Origin: Brevundimonas naejangsanensis
Lineage (GTDB): Bacteria > Pseudomonadota > Alphaproteobacteria > Caulobacterales > Caulobacteraceae
Direction of reading: 5' to 3'
DNA: 64,000 nucleotides
Assembly (NCBI RefSeq): GCF_003627995.1
Contig: NZ_CP032707.1
Coordinates: 124,001-188,000, forward strand
The translations under genes were made by a program, and so were the position numbers. The notes below the pieces were generated by a model. That model ran no database searches and was not told where the DNA came from. It saw nothing but the letters and a program-made list of their open reading frames with translations. Shown one piece after another: positions 2,057-43,309 of this stretch. How positions within the stretch are numbered: the stretch's first letter is position 1; every line of letters starts with the position of its first letter.

Positions 2057-3340
2057 TCACTCCGGCGCGCCGTCGTTCGGCAGTTGCGCCAGGTTCGGGC
2101 GTTCGCCGCGCTTCGACGCCGCCACGCGCTCGACCGCGCGCATGACGCGCAGCAGGTTCTCGCCCGAGATCTTGCGGATGTCGGCCTCGCTCCAGCCCCG
2201 GCGCATCAGTTCGGCCAGCAGGCGCGGATAGCCGTCCACCCCCTCCAAGCCGACCGGCAGGCTGTCCACCCCGTCATAATCCCCGCCCAGGCCGACATGG
2301 TCGATGCCCGCGACGTCGCGCACGTGCTGGATGTGGGCCACCACGTCGTCCATCGTCGCCTTGGGCGCGGGGTTGGCCGCGACCCAGGCGTCGAGGCCCG
2401 CCTTGACCGCCGCCGGGTCGCCGGGGTTCAGGCTCTTCAGCCGCGCGTCCTCGGCCGAGCGAGCGGCGCCCCAGGCGCGCACCGGCTCGCTGATGAAGCC
2501 CGGCACGAAGGTGACCATGACGACGCCGCCGTTGGCGGCCATCTGGCGAAGCACGGCGTCCGGCACGTTGCGCGGATGGGCCGTCACGGCCCGCGCCGAA
2601 GAGTGGGAGAAGATCACCGGCGCCTCGGACACGCGCAGGGCGTCGACCATGGTGTCCTCGGACACGTGGCTGAGGTCGACCATCATGCCCAGGCGGTTCA
2701 TCTCCTTGACCACCTCCTCGCCAAAGGCGTTGAGGCCGCCCCATTTGGGCGCGTCGGTGCCGCTGTCGGCCCAGGTCGTGCTCTTGGAGTGGGTCAGCGT
2801 CATGTAGCGCGCGCCCGAATCGTAGAACTCGCGCAGCAGGCCCAGGGAATCGTCGATGGAGTAGCCGCCCTCCATGCCGATCAGGCTGGCGATCTTGCCG
2901 CCGCGGTGGATGCGGGCCAGGTCGTCGGCGGTCGTGGCGATCTCGAAGGTCTCGGGGTGGGCGGCGACGATGCGCTTGACCGTGTCGATCTGCTCGAAGG
3001 TGGCCTTGGCGGCGTCGACCGGGGCCATGCTGGCGGGCACGTACACCGACCAGAACTGGCCGCCCACGCCCCCGGCGCGCAGGCGCGGAATGTCGGTGTG
3101 CAGACGCGTCGTGGCCGACAGATTCGCATTCAGATCAACGCGGTAGGGATCGTTCCCAAAGCCCTGACGCAGAGCCCAGGGCAGGTCATTGTGACCGTCG
3201 ATCAGAGGGGTGCGCTTGAGAATCTGCATCACGCGCGCCTCATCGGCGCCCGCCTTCGTCGATTGAGCCAGGGCCGGACCGGACAGGACGGCGAGCGAGG
3301 CGGCGGCCAGCAGGGTGGCGCTCAGGGCGGTGCGGATCAT
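2057..3340 (-). CDS. Membrane dipeptidase (peptidase family M19), exported
   Basis: This is a zinc-dependent dipeptidase of the renal dipeptidase family, which hydrolyses dipeptides (often with dehydro- or D-residues) outside the cytoplasm. The 427-residue protein starts with a clear signal peptide ([27 protein letters not shown]). [13 protein letters not shown] then gives the HxD metal motif. Further elements are [11 protein letters not shown] (metal Glu), [12 protein letters not shown] and [15 protein letters not shown] (metal histidines), and [15 protein letters not shown] with the conserved Asp. All expected active-site groups are present and the length is normal. It is a single gene, convergent with trmL and divergent from hemF. 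Substrate preference cannot be read from sequence; roles in D-amino-acid or peptidoglycan peptide turnover are known for relatives. Confidence 0.93.
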
Positions 3341-37554: not shown

Positions 37555-38541
37555 TCATTCTTCAGGCGTCCAGCGACGGATGACAGTGCGCGCCATGCCG
37601 TCGGGCGCGACATGGATCAGGGCGGTGCGCACGGCGCGGGCGTCGCCGTGCTCGATCTCCACCCTCAGGTCGAAATAGCGGTTGGCCAGGGTGATCTGGC
37701 CCTTGGTCTCTTCATCAACGACCACGCCCGCCAGGGCGGGTTGAGCCCAGAAGGCACCGGGGCTGCTCCACCCCGCCGCCGGGCGCGCGGCGATGGCCGC
37801 CTTGGCTGCGTTCAGCCCCACCACGCCCCGGCTGATCGCGACCAGCAGCACGGCGTCCTGCGGCTCCAGCGTATTGGGGTTCAGCGGCGACAGCCGCGCC
37901 TCCGGCAGGGCGCACAGATGGGGCCTCAACCGGCGATAAAGGGCCTCGTCCACCCCGGCGACGGCGCGCAGTTCGCTGACCTCGGCCAGCATGACCCCGC
38001 CCGTGCGATATGGCGTCTGGCGGCTGGCGTAGGTGGAATCTTCCGCCCCCTGCGCCGAGACCTCGGCGTCGCCATCCATCCAGTCGGTCAGCGCCGCCGC
38101 GACCGCCGCCATCCGTCCGCGCGGAACACCCAGGGCGGTGCCCAGGGCGATGAACTGCGCCGCCCCTTCGGGCCGTGCGATCAGGTCCTCGCCCTGGCCA
38201 AGCACCAGGCTGTTCAGGTTGAAGCAGGACTGGCCGTCGCGGATCACCGCCCGCCCCTCGCCGTCGTCCAGCGGCAGGGCGAAGACACGGCCGTTCCAGT
38301 GCGGCTGAAGCGGCGTGCGCGCGGGATCGGCGCGGACCAGATCGGACAGTCGTCGTCGCGCCAGCGCCTCGGCCCCCGCCGCAAAGCCTTGCGCCTGCGC
38401 CTGGCTCTCGGCGTTGGTCGTGCGGCGCACGGAAAAGCGCACATCGTCCAGCAGCACCACGCACAGCGCCGCCATCACCGCCACCAGCAGCAGGACAGTC
38501 AGCAGGGCCATGCCCCGGCGATCGCGCGCGCCCAGCTTCAT
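37555..38541 (-). CDS. gspK: Type II secretion minor pseudopilin GspK
   Basis: GspK is the largest minor pseudopilin and caps the pseudopilus tip with GspI and GspJ. The 328-residue protein has a short leader (MKLGARDRRG) followed by MALLTVLLLVAVMAALCVVL. As is normal for GspK, it lacks the Glu at position 5 of the mature helix. The large domain has the typical CFNLNSLV stretch and SPLNPNTLEPQDAVLL. The leader lacks the repeat-derived insert seen in gspG, gspH and gspJ. It overlaps gspJ upstream by ATGA. Confidence 0.92.
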   Translation of the reverse strand: MKLGARDRRGMALLTVLLLVAVMAALCVVLLDDVRFSVRRTTNAESQAQAQGFAAGAEALARRRLSDLVRADPARTPLQPHWNGRVFALPLDDGEGRAVIRDGQSCFNLNSLVLGQGEDLIARPEGAAQFIALGTALGVPRGRMAAVAAALTDWMDGDAEVSAQGAEDSTYASRQTPYRTGGVMLAEVSELRAVAGVDEALYRRLRPHLCALPEARLSPLNPNTLEPQDAVLLVAISRGVVGLNAAKAAIAARPAAGWSSPGAFWAQPALAGVVVDEETKGQITLANRYFDLRVEIEHGDARAVRTALIHVAPDGMARTVIRRWTPEE

Positions 38542-39182
38542 GCGGCGGCGACCAGAAACAGCTGCTCGACCGGGCCGAAGCCGTCCAGCGTCAGCGTCAC
38601 CCGCACCGCGTCCGGCAGGGGCCGGTCGCTGCTGGCGGAAAAGGCGGGCGCCTCCGATCCGTTCTGGATGAAGGCGACGCGGGCGTCCTTCACGCCGCGA
38701 TACAGCACCTGCGGCGGTCCGGCCCGCGCGCCGTCCAGATACGGCGCCACCCGACGCTCCAGCCGCTCCTCGACCAGCCGGTATTCGACGCGCTGCAAGG
38801 AGGCGCGCGGCGCGCCGTCCGGATTGCTCCAGCCGCTGCGAGCCAGCACCAGCAGGGGATCGCCCGGCAATTGCGGCCCTATGATCGCCTGAGGCGCCGG
38901 ACGCCCCGTCGGCCCGCGCACCCGCCGCCCCGTCGCCTGGGCCAGATCGGCGCGCAGCAGGGCGCGCGTGCGTTGCAGCGCCGCCACTCGGTCGGCGTTC
39001 GTCTTCACCGCGAACCGCGTCTCGATCGACTGCCCCAGCACCAGCGCGCCCGCCCCCGCCAGCAGGGCGAAGATCAATAGGGCGATCAGGACCTCAACCA
39101 GTGTAAATCCGGCTCTTTTTCTTCCGCTATCGCTCGCCGCGCGGCGGCTCGCTGCTTGAGCGGACAGGCGATCTTTCTTCAT
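38538..39182 (-). CDS. gspJ: Type II secretion minor pseudopilin GspJ
   Basis: GspJ is a minor pseudopilin of the tip complex. The 214-residue protein has the prepilin site AG|FTLVEVLIALLIFALLAGAGALV, with the mature Glu5. The N-terminal leader is long for this family, about 25 residues (MKKDRLSAQAASRRAASDSG, then RKRAG). AQAASRRAA in it is encoded by a copy of a palindromic repeat also present in gspG and gspH. The mature part includes RVEYRLVEERLERRV. It overlaps gspK and gspI by 4 bases each. Confidence 0.92.
   Translation of the reverse strand: MKKDRLSAQAASRRAASDSGRKRAGFTLVEVLIALLIFALLAGAGALVLGQSIETRFAVKTNADRVAALQRTRALLRADLAQATGRRVRGPTGRPAPQAIIGPQLPGDPLLVLARSGWSNPDGAPRASLQRVEYRLVEERLERRVAPYLDGARAGPPQVLYRGVKDARVAFIQNGSEAPAFSASSDRPLPDAVRVTLTLDGFGPVEQLFLVAAA
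39118..39162. repeat. In-frame palindromic repeat in the gspJ leader
   Basis: This copy shares CGCTCGCCGCGCGGCGGCTC and GCTGCTTGAGCG with the copy in gspG. Its centre CGCCGCGCGGCG is a perfect 12-base palindrome. On the coding strand it gives AQAASRRAA, just before the prepilin cleavage site. Confidence 0.75.
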
Positions 39183-39544
39183 GCCCCCGCCGCCCGGAAC
39201 AGCACGCGCTCGGCGGCCTGCTCCTCATCGGCGAAGACGCGCACGTCGATGCGGCCGACGCCGGGCATGTCCGTGGCGCTGACCACCCGCACCCAGCGCC
39301 AGTCGCGCCCGCCTAACGCCGCCTGCCCCGACGCCGTGCCGCTCGGCAGGTCGCGCGCGATCATCGCTTCGGCGGCGACATTGTCGGCGACGATGCCGCC
39401 CAGCGTCCGCGTCTCGACCCGCGCGGCGGAGCGCGTGCTCTCGCCGGACAGGTTCAGCAGCGCCATCGCCGCCAGACCGAACACGGCCAAAGCGACTAGA
39501 CACTCGATCAGGGTGAAGCCCGCGCGGGACGAACACTCACTCAT
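39179..39544 (-). CDS. gspI: Type II secretion minor pseudopilin GspI
   Basis: GspI is a small minor pseudopilin that starts tip assembly with GspJ and GspK. The 121-residue protein has a short normal leader, MSECSSRAG, then FTLIECLVALAVFGLAAMALLNL with mature Glu5. GRDWRWVRVV and IDVRVFADEEQAAERV lie in the C-terminal domain. Unlike its neighbours gspG, gspH and gspJ it has no repeat-derived leader. It overlaps gspH by 8 bases and gspJ by 4. Confidence 0.91.
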   Translation of the reverse strand: MSECSSRAGFTLIECLVALAVFGLAAMALLNLSGESTRSAARVETRTLGGIVADNVAAEAMIARDLPSGTASGQAALGGRDWRWVRVVSATDMPGVGRIDVRVFADEEQAAERVLFRAAGA

Positions 39545-40103
39545 GGATCGTCACCTCGCCCGCCCCGTCGATGGCGACAATGACGGCCTGCCCTCCGCGC
39601 TCCAGCCGCACGCTGGCGGCGTCGGCCCCGCCGGTCGGGTCGAAGACGGCGCGCGCGGGCGCGGCGACGGCGGCGCCTTCCTCCCATGCCGTGGGAGCCA
39701 ACACGCCAGTCAGCGGCGTCCAGACCGCGCCGTCAAAGGCCTCGAAGCCATAGCCCGCCGTGTCGGCGCGCAGCGCCACCGGGCGGTTGGTCATCACCGC
39801 CTCTTCGCGCGCCAGCGTCAGGCGCGCGGCGAACCGCTCGGCCTCGACCGCCAGCGTCGGGCGCGGGTCCGGCATGGACAGCACCAACGCCCCCGCCGCC
39901 ACGCCGATAATGGCGATGACGACCATCAGTTCGACGAGGGTGAAGCCTATTCTTTGTTCGCTGCCGCGCGCGCCTCGGGCCCGCGCTGCTTGAGCGAGTT
40001 GTCGTGCGCTACCGCTCGCCGCTCGGCGGCTGCCTATTTGAGCGCGTTGTGCGCGCGCCGATCGAGCCCGATCAGCCCTGCCAGTTGCCGATGTCGGCGT
40101 CAT
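39537..40103 (-). CDS. gspH: Type II secretion minor pseudopilin GspH with a very long leader
   Basis: GspH is the minor pseudopilin that joins the tip complex to the GspG shaft. The prepilin site is IG|FTLVELMVVIAIIGVAAGALVL with mature Glu5; the C-terminal domain has LTLAREEAVMTNRPVALR and FDPTGGADAASVRL. The nearest possible start is the ATG at 40103, inside the end of gspG; no ATG, GTG or TTG lies in frame between it and the cleavage site. The leader is therefore 53 residues, against 5-10 usually. It is built from two tandem copies of a palindromic repeat (encoding RRAASGSARQ and ARARGARGSEQ). How the gene is translated, by coupling to gspG or from a rare start codon, is open. Confidence 0.82.
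   Translation of the reverse strand: MTPTSATGRADRARSARAQRAQIGSRRAASGSARQLAQAARARGARGSEQRIGFTLVELMVVIAIIGVAAGALVLSMPDPRPTLAVEAERFAARLTLAREEAVMTNRPVALRADTAGYGFEAFDGAVWTPLTGVLAPTAWEEGAAVAAPARAVFDPTGGADAASVRLERGGQAVIVAIDGAGEVTIHE
39954..39996. repeat. In-frame repeat in the gspH leader, proximal copy
   Basis: This is a diverged copy ending GCTGCTTGAGCG, directly next to the distal copy at 39999-40044. It encodes LAQAARARGARGSEQ, just before the IG cleavage site of GspH. Confidence 0.65.
39999..40044. repeat. In-frame repeat in the gspH leader, distal copy
   Basis: The segment begins TTGTCGTGCGCTACCGCTCG and ends TTGAGCG. Over 46 bases it is close to the gspG copy at 40483-40528, with about seven differences. 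In GspH it encodes AQIGSRRAASGSARQ. Confidence 0.78.
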
Positions 40104-40590
40104 TTCCCTCGCCCCCTTCCTGGCCGTCGGCGCCGAAGGACCAGATATCGAACTGGCCGCCATGCGCGCTGCGACGGCGGTATTGGTAAGGGTTGCCCCA
40201 CGGGTCTTCCGGCAGGCGGCGGACATAGCCGCCCTGGCGATAGCGTTCCGGCCGCGCCAGATCCGCGGGCGGCGCGGTCAGGGCCTTCAGCCCCTGCTGG
40301 TCCGTGGGGAAGGTCAGGTTGTCGAGGCGATAGGTCTCCACCGCCTGTTCCAGCACCGAGATGTCGGCCCGCGCCTTGCCGACCATGGCCTTGTCCTGAC
40401 TGGGCAGGACGTTGATCGCCACCACCGTCGCCAACAGGCCGATGATGACGATGACCACCATTAGCTCGACAAGGGTGAAGCCTTGTCGTGCGCTACCCCT
40501 CGCCGCGCGGCGGCTCGCTGCTTGAGCGCGTCGGGCGCGCGCCTTGGCGATGTGGCGCAAGCGTCGGGCGCAGGTCTCGAGAACGGACAT
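40072..40590 (-). CDS. gspG: Type II secretion major pseudopilin GspG
   Basis: GspG is the shaft subunit of the pseudopilus. The mature protein is classic: G|FTLVELMVVIVIIGLLATVVAINVL, then MGKARADISVLEQAVETYRLDNLTFPTDQQGL, then RLPEDPWGNPYQY and FDIWSFGADGQEGGEG with calcium-binding residues. The leader from the ATG at 40590 is 37 residues (MSVLETCARRLRHIAKARAR, then RAQAASRRAARGSARQG), much longer than the usual 6-10. Its last part is encoded by a palindromic repeat copy. GAGAGG precedes the start, which lies 11 bases after the gspF stop. Confidence 0.93.
   Translation of the reverse strand: MSVLETCARRLRHIAKARARRAQAASRRAARGSARQGFTLVELMVVIVIIGLLATVVAINVLPSQDKAMVGKARADISVLEQAVETYRLDNLTFPTDQQGLKALTAPPADLARPERYRQGGYVRRLPEDPWGNPYQYRRRSAHGGQFDIWSFGADGQEGGEGNDADIGNWQG
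40483..40528. repeat. In-frame palindromic repeat in the gspG leader
   Basis: This 46-base copy begins TTGTCGTGCGCTACCCCTCG and ends GCTGCTTGAGCG, with the central palindrome CGCCGCGCGGCG. It encodes AQAASRRAARGSARQ, directly before the G|FTLVEL site. It is the best-preserved copy, together with 39999-40044. Confidence 0.8.
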
Positions 40591-40601
40591 CAATGCCTCT
40601 C

Positions 40602-41816
40602 TCACCCCAGGGCCAGGGTGTTGATCTGAAGGATGGGCAGCAGGATCGAGAGCACGATCACGGCCACGATCCCGCCCATGATCACGATGATCGCCGGCTC
40701 CAGAAGGCTGAGCATCACGGCGGTGAAGTTGGAGAACTCGCGCTCCAGATAGTCGGCTGCGCGCTCCAGCATGGGCTCCAGACGGCCGCTGCTTTCGCCG
40801 GACGCGGCCATGTAGACGAGGATGGGCGGGAAGACCTCGGCGCGGCGCATGGCGGCCGACAGGCCGCCGCCCTCGCGCACGGCCTCGGCCATCTGTTCGG
40901 TGGCGCGGCGCAGGGCGCGGTTGGAGACGGTGCGGGCGGTGATGGTCAGCCCCTCCAGCACCGGCAGGCCCGCCGCGATCATGGTCGACAGGGTGCGGGC
41001 CATGCGCGCCCCGTGCAGGTCGCGCGTCAGCCGACCGACCAGCGGCAGCCTCAGCACCCAGGCGTCCAGCCTCAGCCGCACCGCCTCGCGCCGCCTCGCG
41101 ATCAACCCCGCGGCGACCACGGCCGCCAGCGTCAACAGGATCAGCCAGCCCCAGTCGCGCATCAGGTCCGACAGGCCGATGACCAGCCGCGTCAGCAGCG
41201 GCAGGGTCTGGCCCATGCTGTCGAACTGATCGACCACCTTGGGCACGATATAGGCCATCATGGCGACGATGACGCCCAGCGCCACCACCGCCAGCACGCA
41301 CGGATAGACCAGCGCCGTCAACACCTTGCCGCGCACTTGTTCGTCCCGCTCCAGCCCGTCGGCCAGGCGTTCAAGGATGGGCTGAAGCGCGCCCGACTGC
41401 TCGCCCGCCGCCGTCATGGCGCGATACAGCGGCGGAAAAGCCGCGCCCTGCTGGCCCATGGCGTCGGACAGGCGCCGCCCCTCGATCACCCCGGCGTGGA
41501 CGCCTTCCAGCACGCGGCGGACATTGGGCCGGTCGGCCTGAAGCATCAGATTGCGCAGCGCCTCTTCCAGCGGAGAGACGGAGATCAGCGTCGCCAGTTG
41601 CCGCGTGGTTAGCGCCAGCGTCTTGGGCGACAGGCGCCCGACCTTGCCGACCTTCGAAGGCGCGGCGACCGCGCCCGAACGACCGGCCGTCAGTTGCAAC
41701 GGGGCCAACTGGCGCTTCGCCAGCGCCTTGCGCGCAGCCGCCTCATCGGCGGCAGTCACGGAGCCGCTGACCGTCCGCCCGGCCGCGTCGGCGGCGATGT
41801 AGTCGAAAGCCGCCAT
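40602..41816 (-). CDS. gspF: Type II secretion inner-membrane platform protein GspF
   Basis: GspF is the polytopic platform protein on which GspE acts to extrude pseudopilin. The 404-residue protein has an N-terminal cytoplasmic domain (MAAFDYIAADAAGRTVSGSV), and two repeats of the T2SSF domain with their signature stretches (FPPLYRAMTAAGEQSGALQPIL; FPPILVYMAASGESSGRLEPML). Hydrophobic helices follow near residues 170-190, 220-245 and 375-398. Its start shares one base with the gspE stop (TGATG), so translation is coupled. Confidence 0.95.
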   Translation of the reverse strand: MAAFDYIAADAAGRTVSGSVTAADEAAARKALAKRQLAPLQLTAGRSGAVAAPSKVGKVGRLSPKTLALTTRQLATLISVSPLEEALRNLMLQADRPNVRRVLEGVHAGVIEGRRLSDAMGQQGAAFPPLYRAMTAAGEQSGALQPILERLADGLERDEQVRGKVLTALVYPCVLAVVALGVIVAMMAYIVPKVVDQFDSMGQTLPLLTRLVIGLSDLMRDWGWLILLTLAAVVAAGLIARRREAVRLRLDAWVLRLPLVGRLTRDLHGARMARTLSTMIAAGLPVLEGLTITARTVSNRALRRATEQMAEAVREGGGLSAAMRRAEVFPPILVYMAASGESSGRLEPMLERAADYLEREFSNFTAVMLSLLEPAIIVIMGGIVAVIVLSILLPILQINTLALG

Positions 41817-43309
41817 CAGGCCGCGACCTCTTCGGCGGCGGTCTCCTGACGCGCCACGCGCAGGGCCTCCTCGACCGAGGTGACGCCCTCCAGCACCAGC
41901 GCCCGCGCCCGGTCGGCCAGCGTCCCGCCGCGCGCGAAGGCGGCGTCGAACACCGCGTCCTCATCGGCGCCCGAGGCGATCAGGCGACGCAACTTCTCGT
42001 CCACCGCCAGCGTCTCATAAAGGCCGATCCGCCCGACATAGCCGGTCGAACCGCAGTCGGCGCAGCCGTGCGGCCGCCAGACCCGCACGCCTCCCTCGGC
42101 CCCGATCAGGCGCGCCGTCGCCTTGTCCGCCGTCTCCTCGATCCGGCAGTGCGGGCACAGGCGCCGCACCAGCCGCTGCGCCACCACCAGCCGCAGGGTC
42201 GAGGCCAGCAGGAAGGGCTCGACCCCCATGTCGCGCAGCCGCGTCACGGCCCCGGCCGCATCATTGGTGTGGACCGTCGACAGAACCAGATGGCCTGTCA
42301 GCGAGGCTTGAACGGCGATGGCCGCCGTCTCCGTGTCGCGGATTTCGCCGACCATGACCACGTCCGGGTCCTGACGCAGGATGGCGCGCAGACCGGCGGC
42401 GAAGGTCATGCCGACCTTGGGGTTCACCTGCGTCTGGCCCACGCCCTCCATGGCGTATTCAACCGGGTCTTCGACCGTCAGGATGTTGCGCGAGCCGTCG
42501 TTCAGCAGCGACAGTCCGGCATAGAGGCTGGTCGTCTTGCCCGAGCCGGTCGGCCCGGTCACGAGGATGATGCCGTTCGGCTCGGCCAGCGCATGGCGGA
42601 AGGCCTCCAGCGCCGCCGGGTCCATGCCTAGACGGTCCAGCGTCAGCCCGGCCTGATCCTTGTCCAGAATCCGCAGCACCACCCGCTCGCCCGCCCGCGA
42701 CGGCAGGGTCGAGACGCGCACGTCCAGCGACTTGCCGCCCAGCGTCAGGGGAATGCGCCCGTCCTGGGGTTTGCGCTTCTCGGCGATGTCCAGCCGCGCC
42801 ATGACCTTGATGCGCGACACCAGCAGCGGCGCCACGCGCGGATTCAGGCTCAGCGCCTCGCGCAGCACCCCGTCCACCCGCATCCGCACCAGAAGGCGCG
42901 TCTCATAGCTTTCCAGATGCACGTCCGAGGCGCCGATGCGGGCGGCCTCAGCGATGACGCCGTTGATCAGGCGGATGACTGGCGCGTCGTCCGTGGCGTC
43001 CAGCAAGTCCGCCGCCGCCGGAATGTCATCCACCAGACTGTCCAGCCCCACCGGCAGGGACAGGTCGTCGCCGTCGGCCGCCGTCAGTTGCTCTCCCGCA
43101 TAGACTTCCGACAGCTTGCGGTCGAAGGCGGCGGCGCTCAGCGGCGTCGCCTCCAGCGGGCGGCCCAGCGCGCGGCGCGCCTCGACCAGCGCCAGAGGGT
43201 CTGCGCCCTCGCGCACCCCCACCGCCATCACTTCGCCCGCCGCCAGCAGCAGGACGCCGTGCGTCTTGGCGAAGCCGTAAGGCAGGCGTGGATCGACGAC
43301 GGTGATCAC
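41816..43309 (-). CDS. gspE: Type II secretion ATPase GspE
   Basis: GspE is the hexameric cytoplasmic ATPase that powers pseudopilus assembly. The 497-residue protein has the N1E region, then DVHLESYETRLLVRMRVDGVL, Walker A GPTGSGKTTSLYAGL, the Asp box ILTVEDPVEY, Walker B LRQDPDVVMVGEIRDTETA, and STVHTNDAAGAVTRLRDMGV with the His box. The zinc-binding C-M domain carries CPHC and CADC. All catalytic residues are present. It overlaps gspD by ATGA and gspF by one base. Confidence 0.96.
   Translation of the reverse strand: MITVVDPRLPYGFAKTHGVLLLAAGEVMAVGVREGADPLALVEARRALGRPLEATPLSAAAFDRKLSEVYAGEQLTAADGDDLSLPVGLDSLVDDIPAAADLLDATDDAPVIRLINGVIAEAARIGASDVHLESYETRLLVRMRVDGVLREALSLNPRVAPLLVSRIKVMARLDIAEKRKPQDGRIPLTLGGKSLDVRVSTLPSRAGERVVLRILDKDQAGLTLDRLGMDPAALEAFRHALAEPNGIILVTGPTGSGKTTSLYAGLSLLNDGSRNILTVEDPVEYAMEGVGQTQVNPKVGMTFAAGLRAILRQDPDVVMVGEIRDTETAAIAVQASLTGHLVLSTVHTNDAAGAVTRLRDMGVEPFLLASTLRLVVAQRLVRRLCPHCRIEETADKATARLIGAEGGVRVWRPHGCADCGSTGYVGRIGLYETLAVDEKLRRLIASGADEDAVFDAAFARGGTLADRARALVLEGVTSVEEALRVARQETAAEEVAA

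Follow-up and report, generated by a model that had tools for sequence, protein, structure and literature searches.

Palindromic REP-like repeats recur in frame in the pseudopilin leaders of Brevundimonas

Palindromic repeats within coding sequence have been described in several forms. Rickettsia palindromic elements (RPE) are reported as ~150-bp units of ten families in many unrelated genes (PMC10969869), and REPs as 20–40-bp palindromes forming dimers or clusters near gene 3′ ends, with some copies intragenic and some N-terminal (PMC3733652). For the enterobacterial RU-1/2/3 repeats (ERIC and its kin), the account in PMC2759123 includes a repeat in the predicted cleavable signal peptide of one Yersinia gene. 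The repeat described here, REP40, is an imperfect 40-bp palindrome of Brevundimonas whose tandem units mostly measure 48 bp each. Like RPE, it occurs in frame within protein genes (66 pseudopilin leaders, and SelO in genomes G012, G003, and G002); unlike RPE as characterized there, it is 40–48 bp rather than ~150 bp long and nearly always intergenic, and its coding copies were seen in pseudopilin leaders and one SelO loop. Like REPs, it is a short palindrome found in pairs and clusters near gene 3′ ends with some copies in genes, and the section of PMC3733652 on intragenic copies names no pseudopilin leader. Like the RU repeat, it is a probably mobile repeat inside a predicted cleavable N-terminal segment; unlike RU, for which that account gives one predicted case, REP40 has entered four paralogous genes recurrently and genus-wide. 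Coding palindromes as such are already known in Rickettsia and elsewhere; what appears new, relative to the open-licence literature searched, in which we found no description of repeats in pseudopilin leaders, is a recurrent hot spot in these leaders.

Prepilin peptidases remove the leader after the Gly that stands ahead of Phe, and the REP40 copies of the Brevundimonas naejangsanensis gsp operon all precede such a site. The window analyzed is a stretch of 64,000 nucleotides, positions 124001–188000 of a single-contig 3.0-Mb genome, and the identities of its gspG, H, I, J, and K genes are backed by Pfam matches. The features are as follows, with REP40 scores from nhmmer and a model built from extragenic copies.

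40072..40590, minus strand: gspG, 172 aa with a 37-aa leader; Pfam T2SSG and N_methyl
40480, minus strand: expected gspG cleavage site, after the Gly codon ending here
40490..40529, minus strand: REP40 in the gspG leader, 35.1 bits
39537..40103, minus strand: gspH, 188 aa with a 53-aa leader; Pfam GspH and N_methyl
40006..40045, minus strand: REP40 copy 1 in the gspH leader, degenerate, 16.6 bits
39965..39996, minus strand: REP40 copy 2 in the gspH leader, degenerate and partial, 14.6 bits
39179..39544, minus strand: gspI, short leader without the repeat; Pfam match
38538..39182, minus strand: gspJ, 214 aa with a 25-aa leader; Pfam match
39125..39162, minus strand: REP40 in the gspJ leader, 45.9 bits
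37555..38541, minus strand: gspK, without a REP40 match in the model search; Pfam match

At its 3′ end gspG overlaps the start codon of gspH, and the gspJ start and gspI stop share an ATGA overlap. A preliminary description of this DNA had reported four repeat stretches (that in gspG at 40483–40528), and all four are present, in one codon register, directly ahead of G|FTLVE. Its term "near-identical" suits the gspG and gspJ copies, which share an identical 29-nt core; the two gspH copies, set 48 bp apart, are degenerate, with 70% and 76% identity to the gspJ copy over 50 nt. With up to three mismatches, the 29-nt core had no match in 100 dinucleotide-preserving shuffles of the window.

The proposal that the unit is a dispersed palindromic element was borne out. 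BLAST of the unit against its own genome, in which 40 of 105 candidates were scored, returned no fewer than 49 matches at E ≤ 10, part of them short and chance-like. The REP40 model itself has 40 positions (consensus GCGCTCAAGCAGCGAGCCGCCGCGCGGCGAGCGATAGCGC), built from 19 extragenic copies of this genome; it recovers all four gsp copies, on which it was not trained, the two in gspH weakly. The own-genome stretches examined contain 45 model matches, 4 in gsp and 41 elsewhere, 38 of the latter at ≥20 bits, so the unit is far from being confined to the operon, and its absence elsewhere in the genome, one of the refuting conditions proposed at the outset, does not apply. All 41 are intergenic according to a codon-usage gene caller, which also places the gsp leaders outside genes and is therefore blind to N-terminal additions. 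For 34 of the 41, the gene boundary closest to the repeat is a 3′ one, no more than 10 nt away in 13 of these, and the repeat is opposite in direction to that gene in 25 of the 34. An open frame running through the repeat into coding sequence is present for three of the four gsp copies and for one of the 41 others; the same test on 31 copies in 20 stretches of five relatives gave one positive, the in-frame SelO insertion. The one positive among the 41, a candidate N-terminal copy at position 1603935 of the own genome, was rejected, as an ATG and a purine-rich likely ribosome site follow the repeat.

The two arms of REP40 are conserved as a pair. Across 16 distinct, ungapped copies of the own genome, picked by hand, 99% of cells are paired, 18 cells have changes on both sides against a shuffled mean of 4.4, and the covariation score is 0.259 against 0.052 in shuffles (reached in 0/500); counted by pairs, however, both-side changes affect 4, against 2.8 in shuffles (91/500), which is not unusual. 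With paired arms conserved by compensatory change, and as a short palindrome with many copies, mostly intergenic and near 3′ ends, REP40 is a REP in the broad sense. Unlike the GTAG/CGTC-tagged REPs, it lacks a clear GTAG or CGTC tag at the stem end (consensus GCGATAGCGC): the majority consensus ends in GATAG or GTTAG, with GGTAG in some copies only. A RAYT gene (Y1_Tnp, PF01797) was found in 1/25 Brevundimonas genomes and 5/14 control genomes; none was found in the own genome, and we rejected RAYT as the mover of REP40 on that ground. We likewise rejected a terminator or structured-RNA reading. The predicted RNA fold of the unit is stable, yet within the range of shuffles (z −0.4 and +0.9), as are those of the gsp copies (z +0.4, −1.8, and −1.4), and an Rfam search of window positions 38000–42000 returned two matches only, both below the gathering score and neither on the repeats.

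Searching other genomes for the unit, as the preliminary description had suggested, located REP40 in 25/25 Brevundimonas genomes tested and, in 4/16 other genomes of the order, one weak match each. A gspG gene was identified at E ≤ 1e−45 in 70/131 Brevundimonas genomes, and 65 of these 70 operons were used; G006 was excluded for a partial gspG, G077, G114, and G138 because the gspG motif was not found, and G117 because no gspF stop was found. Among the 65, gspI was not found in one and gspJ not found in 10. Leader length was taken from the upstream stop codon to the G|F site, a measure that does not depend on calling a start: clean distances are mostly ~55–65 for G and 8–25 for H, I, and J, and insert-bearing ones reach 308. 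At a threshold of ≥14 bits, REP40 lies in the leaders of gspG in 24/65 operons, gspH in 29/65, gspI in 4/64, and gspJ in 9/55; 42/65 operons have it in at least one pseudopilin leader, and 55/65 have REP40 or another long leader insert. The absence of the repeat from gspI and gspK and its uniform orientation, both reported initially, hold for B. naejangsanensis; across the genus gspI is among the genes entered, and leader copies occur in both orientations, with reversed ones in G021 and G012. As a separate observation, the single-contig genome G012 has the gsp operon twice (C1:1304991 and 1980043), with an identical set of three repeats. Xanthomonas GspG proteins (L178–L182) are 65–74% identical, over the best segment, to that of B. 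naejangsanensis, and mostly closer to it than are the Sphingomonas ones listed; on these identities, transfer of a gsp operon between the Xanthomonas and Brevundimonas groups is possible.

In every REP40-bearing leader (66/66), an in-frame start codon precedes the repeats and no stop interrupts the frame, which bears out the original claim that the repeat is kept in frame and tolerated; in gspG of G047 the true leader is uncertain owing to a nearer ATG, yet that ATG also precedes the repeats. All 94 leader copies, in either orientation, share one codon register (77 of them at ≥20 bits), and since the forward consensus has another open frame, this constancy is not due to stops alone. The stop-to-cleavage distance is 1 mod 3 at 35/37 long G-H junctions, and in the two exceptions an ATG overlaps the gspG stop; it is 2 mod 3 at 55/55 I-J junctions, including 9/9 long ones, and 1 mod 3 at 53/64 H-I junctions, where the frame is less strict (13/17 long ones) and where no upstream start was seen in the N-masked gspI leader of G051. 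Repeat pairs in leaders lie at multiple-of-3 spacing in 28/28 cases (20 of them co-oriented, 8 opposed) versus 6/15 extragenic same-orientation tandem pairs (Fisher p 9e−6), a difference already implied by the shared register and not independent evidence. These frame, register, and spacing counts include related genomes and are not independent events.

The register of the leader copies is found again inside another protein, SelO. In G012, G003, and G002, the SelO loop flanked by RGFLAAQ and RLLDLGTKG contains REP40 in frame (44.5, 38.4, and 37.4 bits, respectively). At this site G009 and G008 carry inserts that the model does not match, and G014 carries a large different one; the protein match of G014 contains a stop. 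The site is empty in ten genomes, and 7/24 loci gave no motif. The preliminary description placed all copies within the segment removed by prepilin peptidase, which suits the coding copies of its own genome; across the genus it does not extend to this loop, and removal by the peptidase is thus not required for tolerance.

REP40 is also not the only repeat in these leaders. Long leaders without similarity at the DNA level had been put forward as evidence against a mobile element, and in part they exist, 32/97 long leaders having no REP40 match; the inserts of two of these 32 were searched in their own genomes. That in gspG of G084 is another dispersed repeat with 32 matches, one of them in the gspH leader of the same genome; both strands of one palindrome match, and the 32 therefore correspond to ~18 separate places. 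That in gspI of G067 has a single other match, which is weak, and it is not clearly dispersed. The flank beside REP40 in the G021 leaders has 15 matches in G021 and 26 in G012, gsp leaders included. Beyond the genus, the gspH insert of Sphingobium limneticum has at least 68 genome matches counted over both strands, with 40 of 220 candidates scored, and the gspG leader of this species is among them; the gspH insert of Sphingomonas sp. Leaf242 has 39 further matches, all short (~22–39 nt of the palindrome). The leader unit of Sphingobium chungbukense (L224) is not dispersed, with genome matches in gspG and gspH only; its leaders (~2600–2705 and 3128–3228) contain tandem RRSAEHGF units, with the cleavage-site GF repeated in every unit. 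Three Luteimonas loci (L190, L193, and L198) have long G-H stop-to-cleavage distances of 223, 154, and 282, and the gspG leader of L198 contains a GATTCCC run.

Leader contents also vary among close relatives. On a tree of 64 operons (FastTree, GspF tail plus G, H, and I; Fitch counts, with genomes lacking a found gspJ scored as repeat-free), REP40 presence changes at least 16 times for G, 14 for H, 4 for I, and 6 for J, against shuffled-label means of 18.9, 21.4, 4.0, and 8.6, and empty leaders are nested among filled ones. In a close group of ten genomes with mature GspG ≥99% identical, the gspJ leader contains no insert in G067, a single copy in five genomes, and two copies in two, with no call in the remaining two; of the ten gspG leaders, five are clean, four contain REP40, and that of G084 carries the other repeat. 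Such gain and loss suggest recent mobility, and the near-identical G and I leaders of G021 may reflect copies spreading between paralogous leaders by recombination. We found no pair of empty and filled sites with a target duplication when comparing gspJ of B. naejangsanensis with that of G067, or at SelO; the flanks diverge.

We favor the reading, with a probability of roughly 0.8, that REP40 copies are selfish REP-like elements filtered by protein tolerance, and that pseudopilin leaders are the main coding landing pad seen. REP40 would be a probably selfish element of the genus that presumably spreads by transposition and sits mainly just downstream of gene 3′ ends, which may be a preference in arrival as distinct from survival. 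Because neighboring gsp genes either abut or overlap head to tail, elements arriving at 3′ ends, at the gspF/G, G/H, H/I, and I/J junctions, would fall in the leader of the next pseudopilin. Only in-frame insertions would survive, and they would be cheap there, since the leader ahead of G|F is expected to be discarded and makes few sequence demands; removal by the peptidase may favor tolerance. REP40 and unrelated dispersed repeats would then repeatedly occupy the leader, be lost from it, and extend it in tandem, presumably to no benefit of the cell.

If translation started further downstream, the repeats would simply be intergenic REPs separating the genes of an operon. PMC3733652 warns that REPs annotated as N-terminal often go untranslated, the codon-usage caller assigns the gsp leaders to no gene, and 31/66 leaders have an in-frame ATG, GTG, or TTG in, between, or after the repeats (in or between them in 21/66; after the last in 13/66, of which 10 have an ATG, at codon −2 in 7 cases), such that a later start is possible in some relatives. 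As a general explanation it is very improbable: no such codon lies in frame 3′ of the repeat in gspG, gspH, or gspJ of B. naejangsanensis, 35/66 leaders have none between the first repeat and the cleavage site, and neither the frame kept in all 66 leaders, nor the register constant in all 94 copies, nor the identical register inside SelO would be expected of untranslated repeats.

Common ancestry, meaning one old insertion per gene or a leader copied between paralogues rather than repeated insertion, could account for the two copies in the gspH leader of 7/10 close-group genomes and for the matching G and I leaders of G021. We consider it distinctly unlikely given the opposite orientations and differing copy numbers, the empty leaders nested among filled ones (at least 16 and 14 changes for G and H, against shuffled means of 18.9 and 21.4), and the other repeat families at the identical place. 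The repeats could otherwise be kept for a function. RNA hairpins formed by them at the F-G and G-H junctions could set mRNA stability or translation, and thereby how much major pseudopilin is made relative to the minor ones; alternatively, the lengthened Arg-rich leaders could alter membrane insertion. It is in keeping with such a role that the leaders adjoining the major pseudopilin gene, those of H and G, are hit more often than those of I and J, that the palindrome covaries, and that the median net charge of leaders with REP40 is higher than without (8 versus 4 for G, 7 versus 3 for H); the charge is raised because the REP40 peptide is itself Arg-rich, and may be a by-product. A function nonetheless seems unlikely: G or J leaders are empty in close relatives whose mature GspG is almost the same, the repeats occur in either orientation, repeats of unrelated families are found as well, the predicted RNA folds are no more stable than shuffles, and short clean leaders are still common.

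A broader reading, which we regard as doubtful, is that prepilin leaders are a general safe harbor for mobile palindromes across several bacterial families, and that the lineage tunes type II secretion by the fast leader turnover that results. If true, a segment that is made and then discarded would let any small repeat family live inside operons, and tuning would act through a hairpin at the major/minor junction together with a variable charged leader. The gsp operons of Brevundimonas amount to a dense natural experiment in how selfish palindromes come to lie in coding sequence, with 65 operons, four paralogous genes, and three or more repeat families to compare. Entry seems to occur in a single register and at places where the peptide is thrown away or forms a loop. 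The length of a pseudopilin leader is thus no conserved trait within this genus, and the inserts offer a test of how much leader the prepilin peptidase will tolerate.
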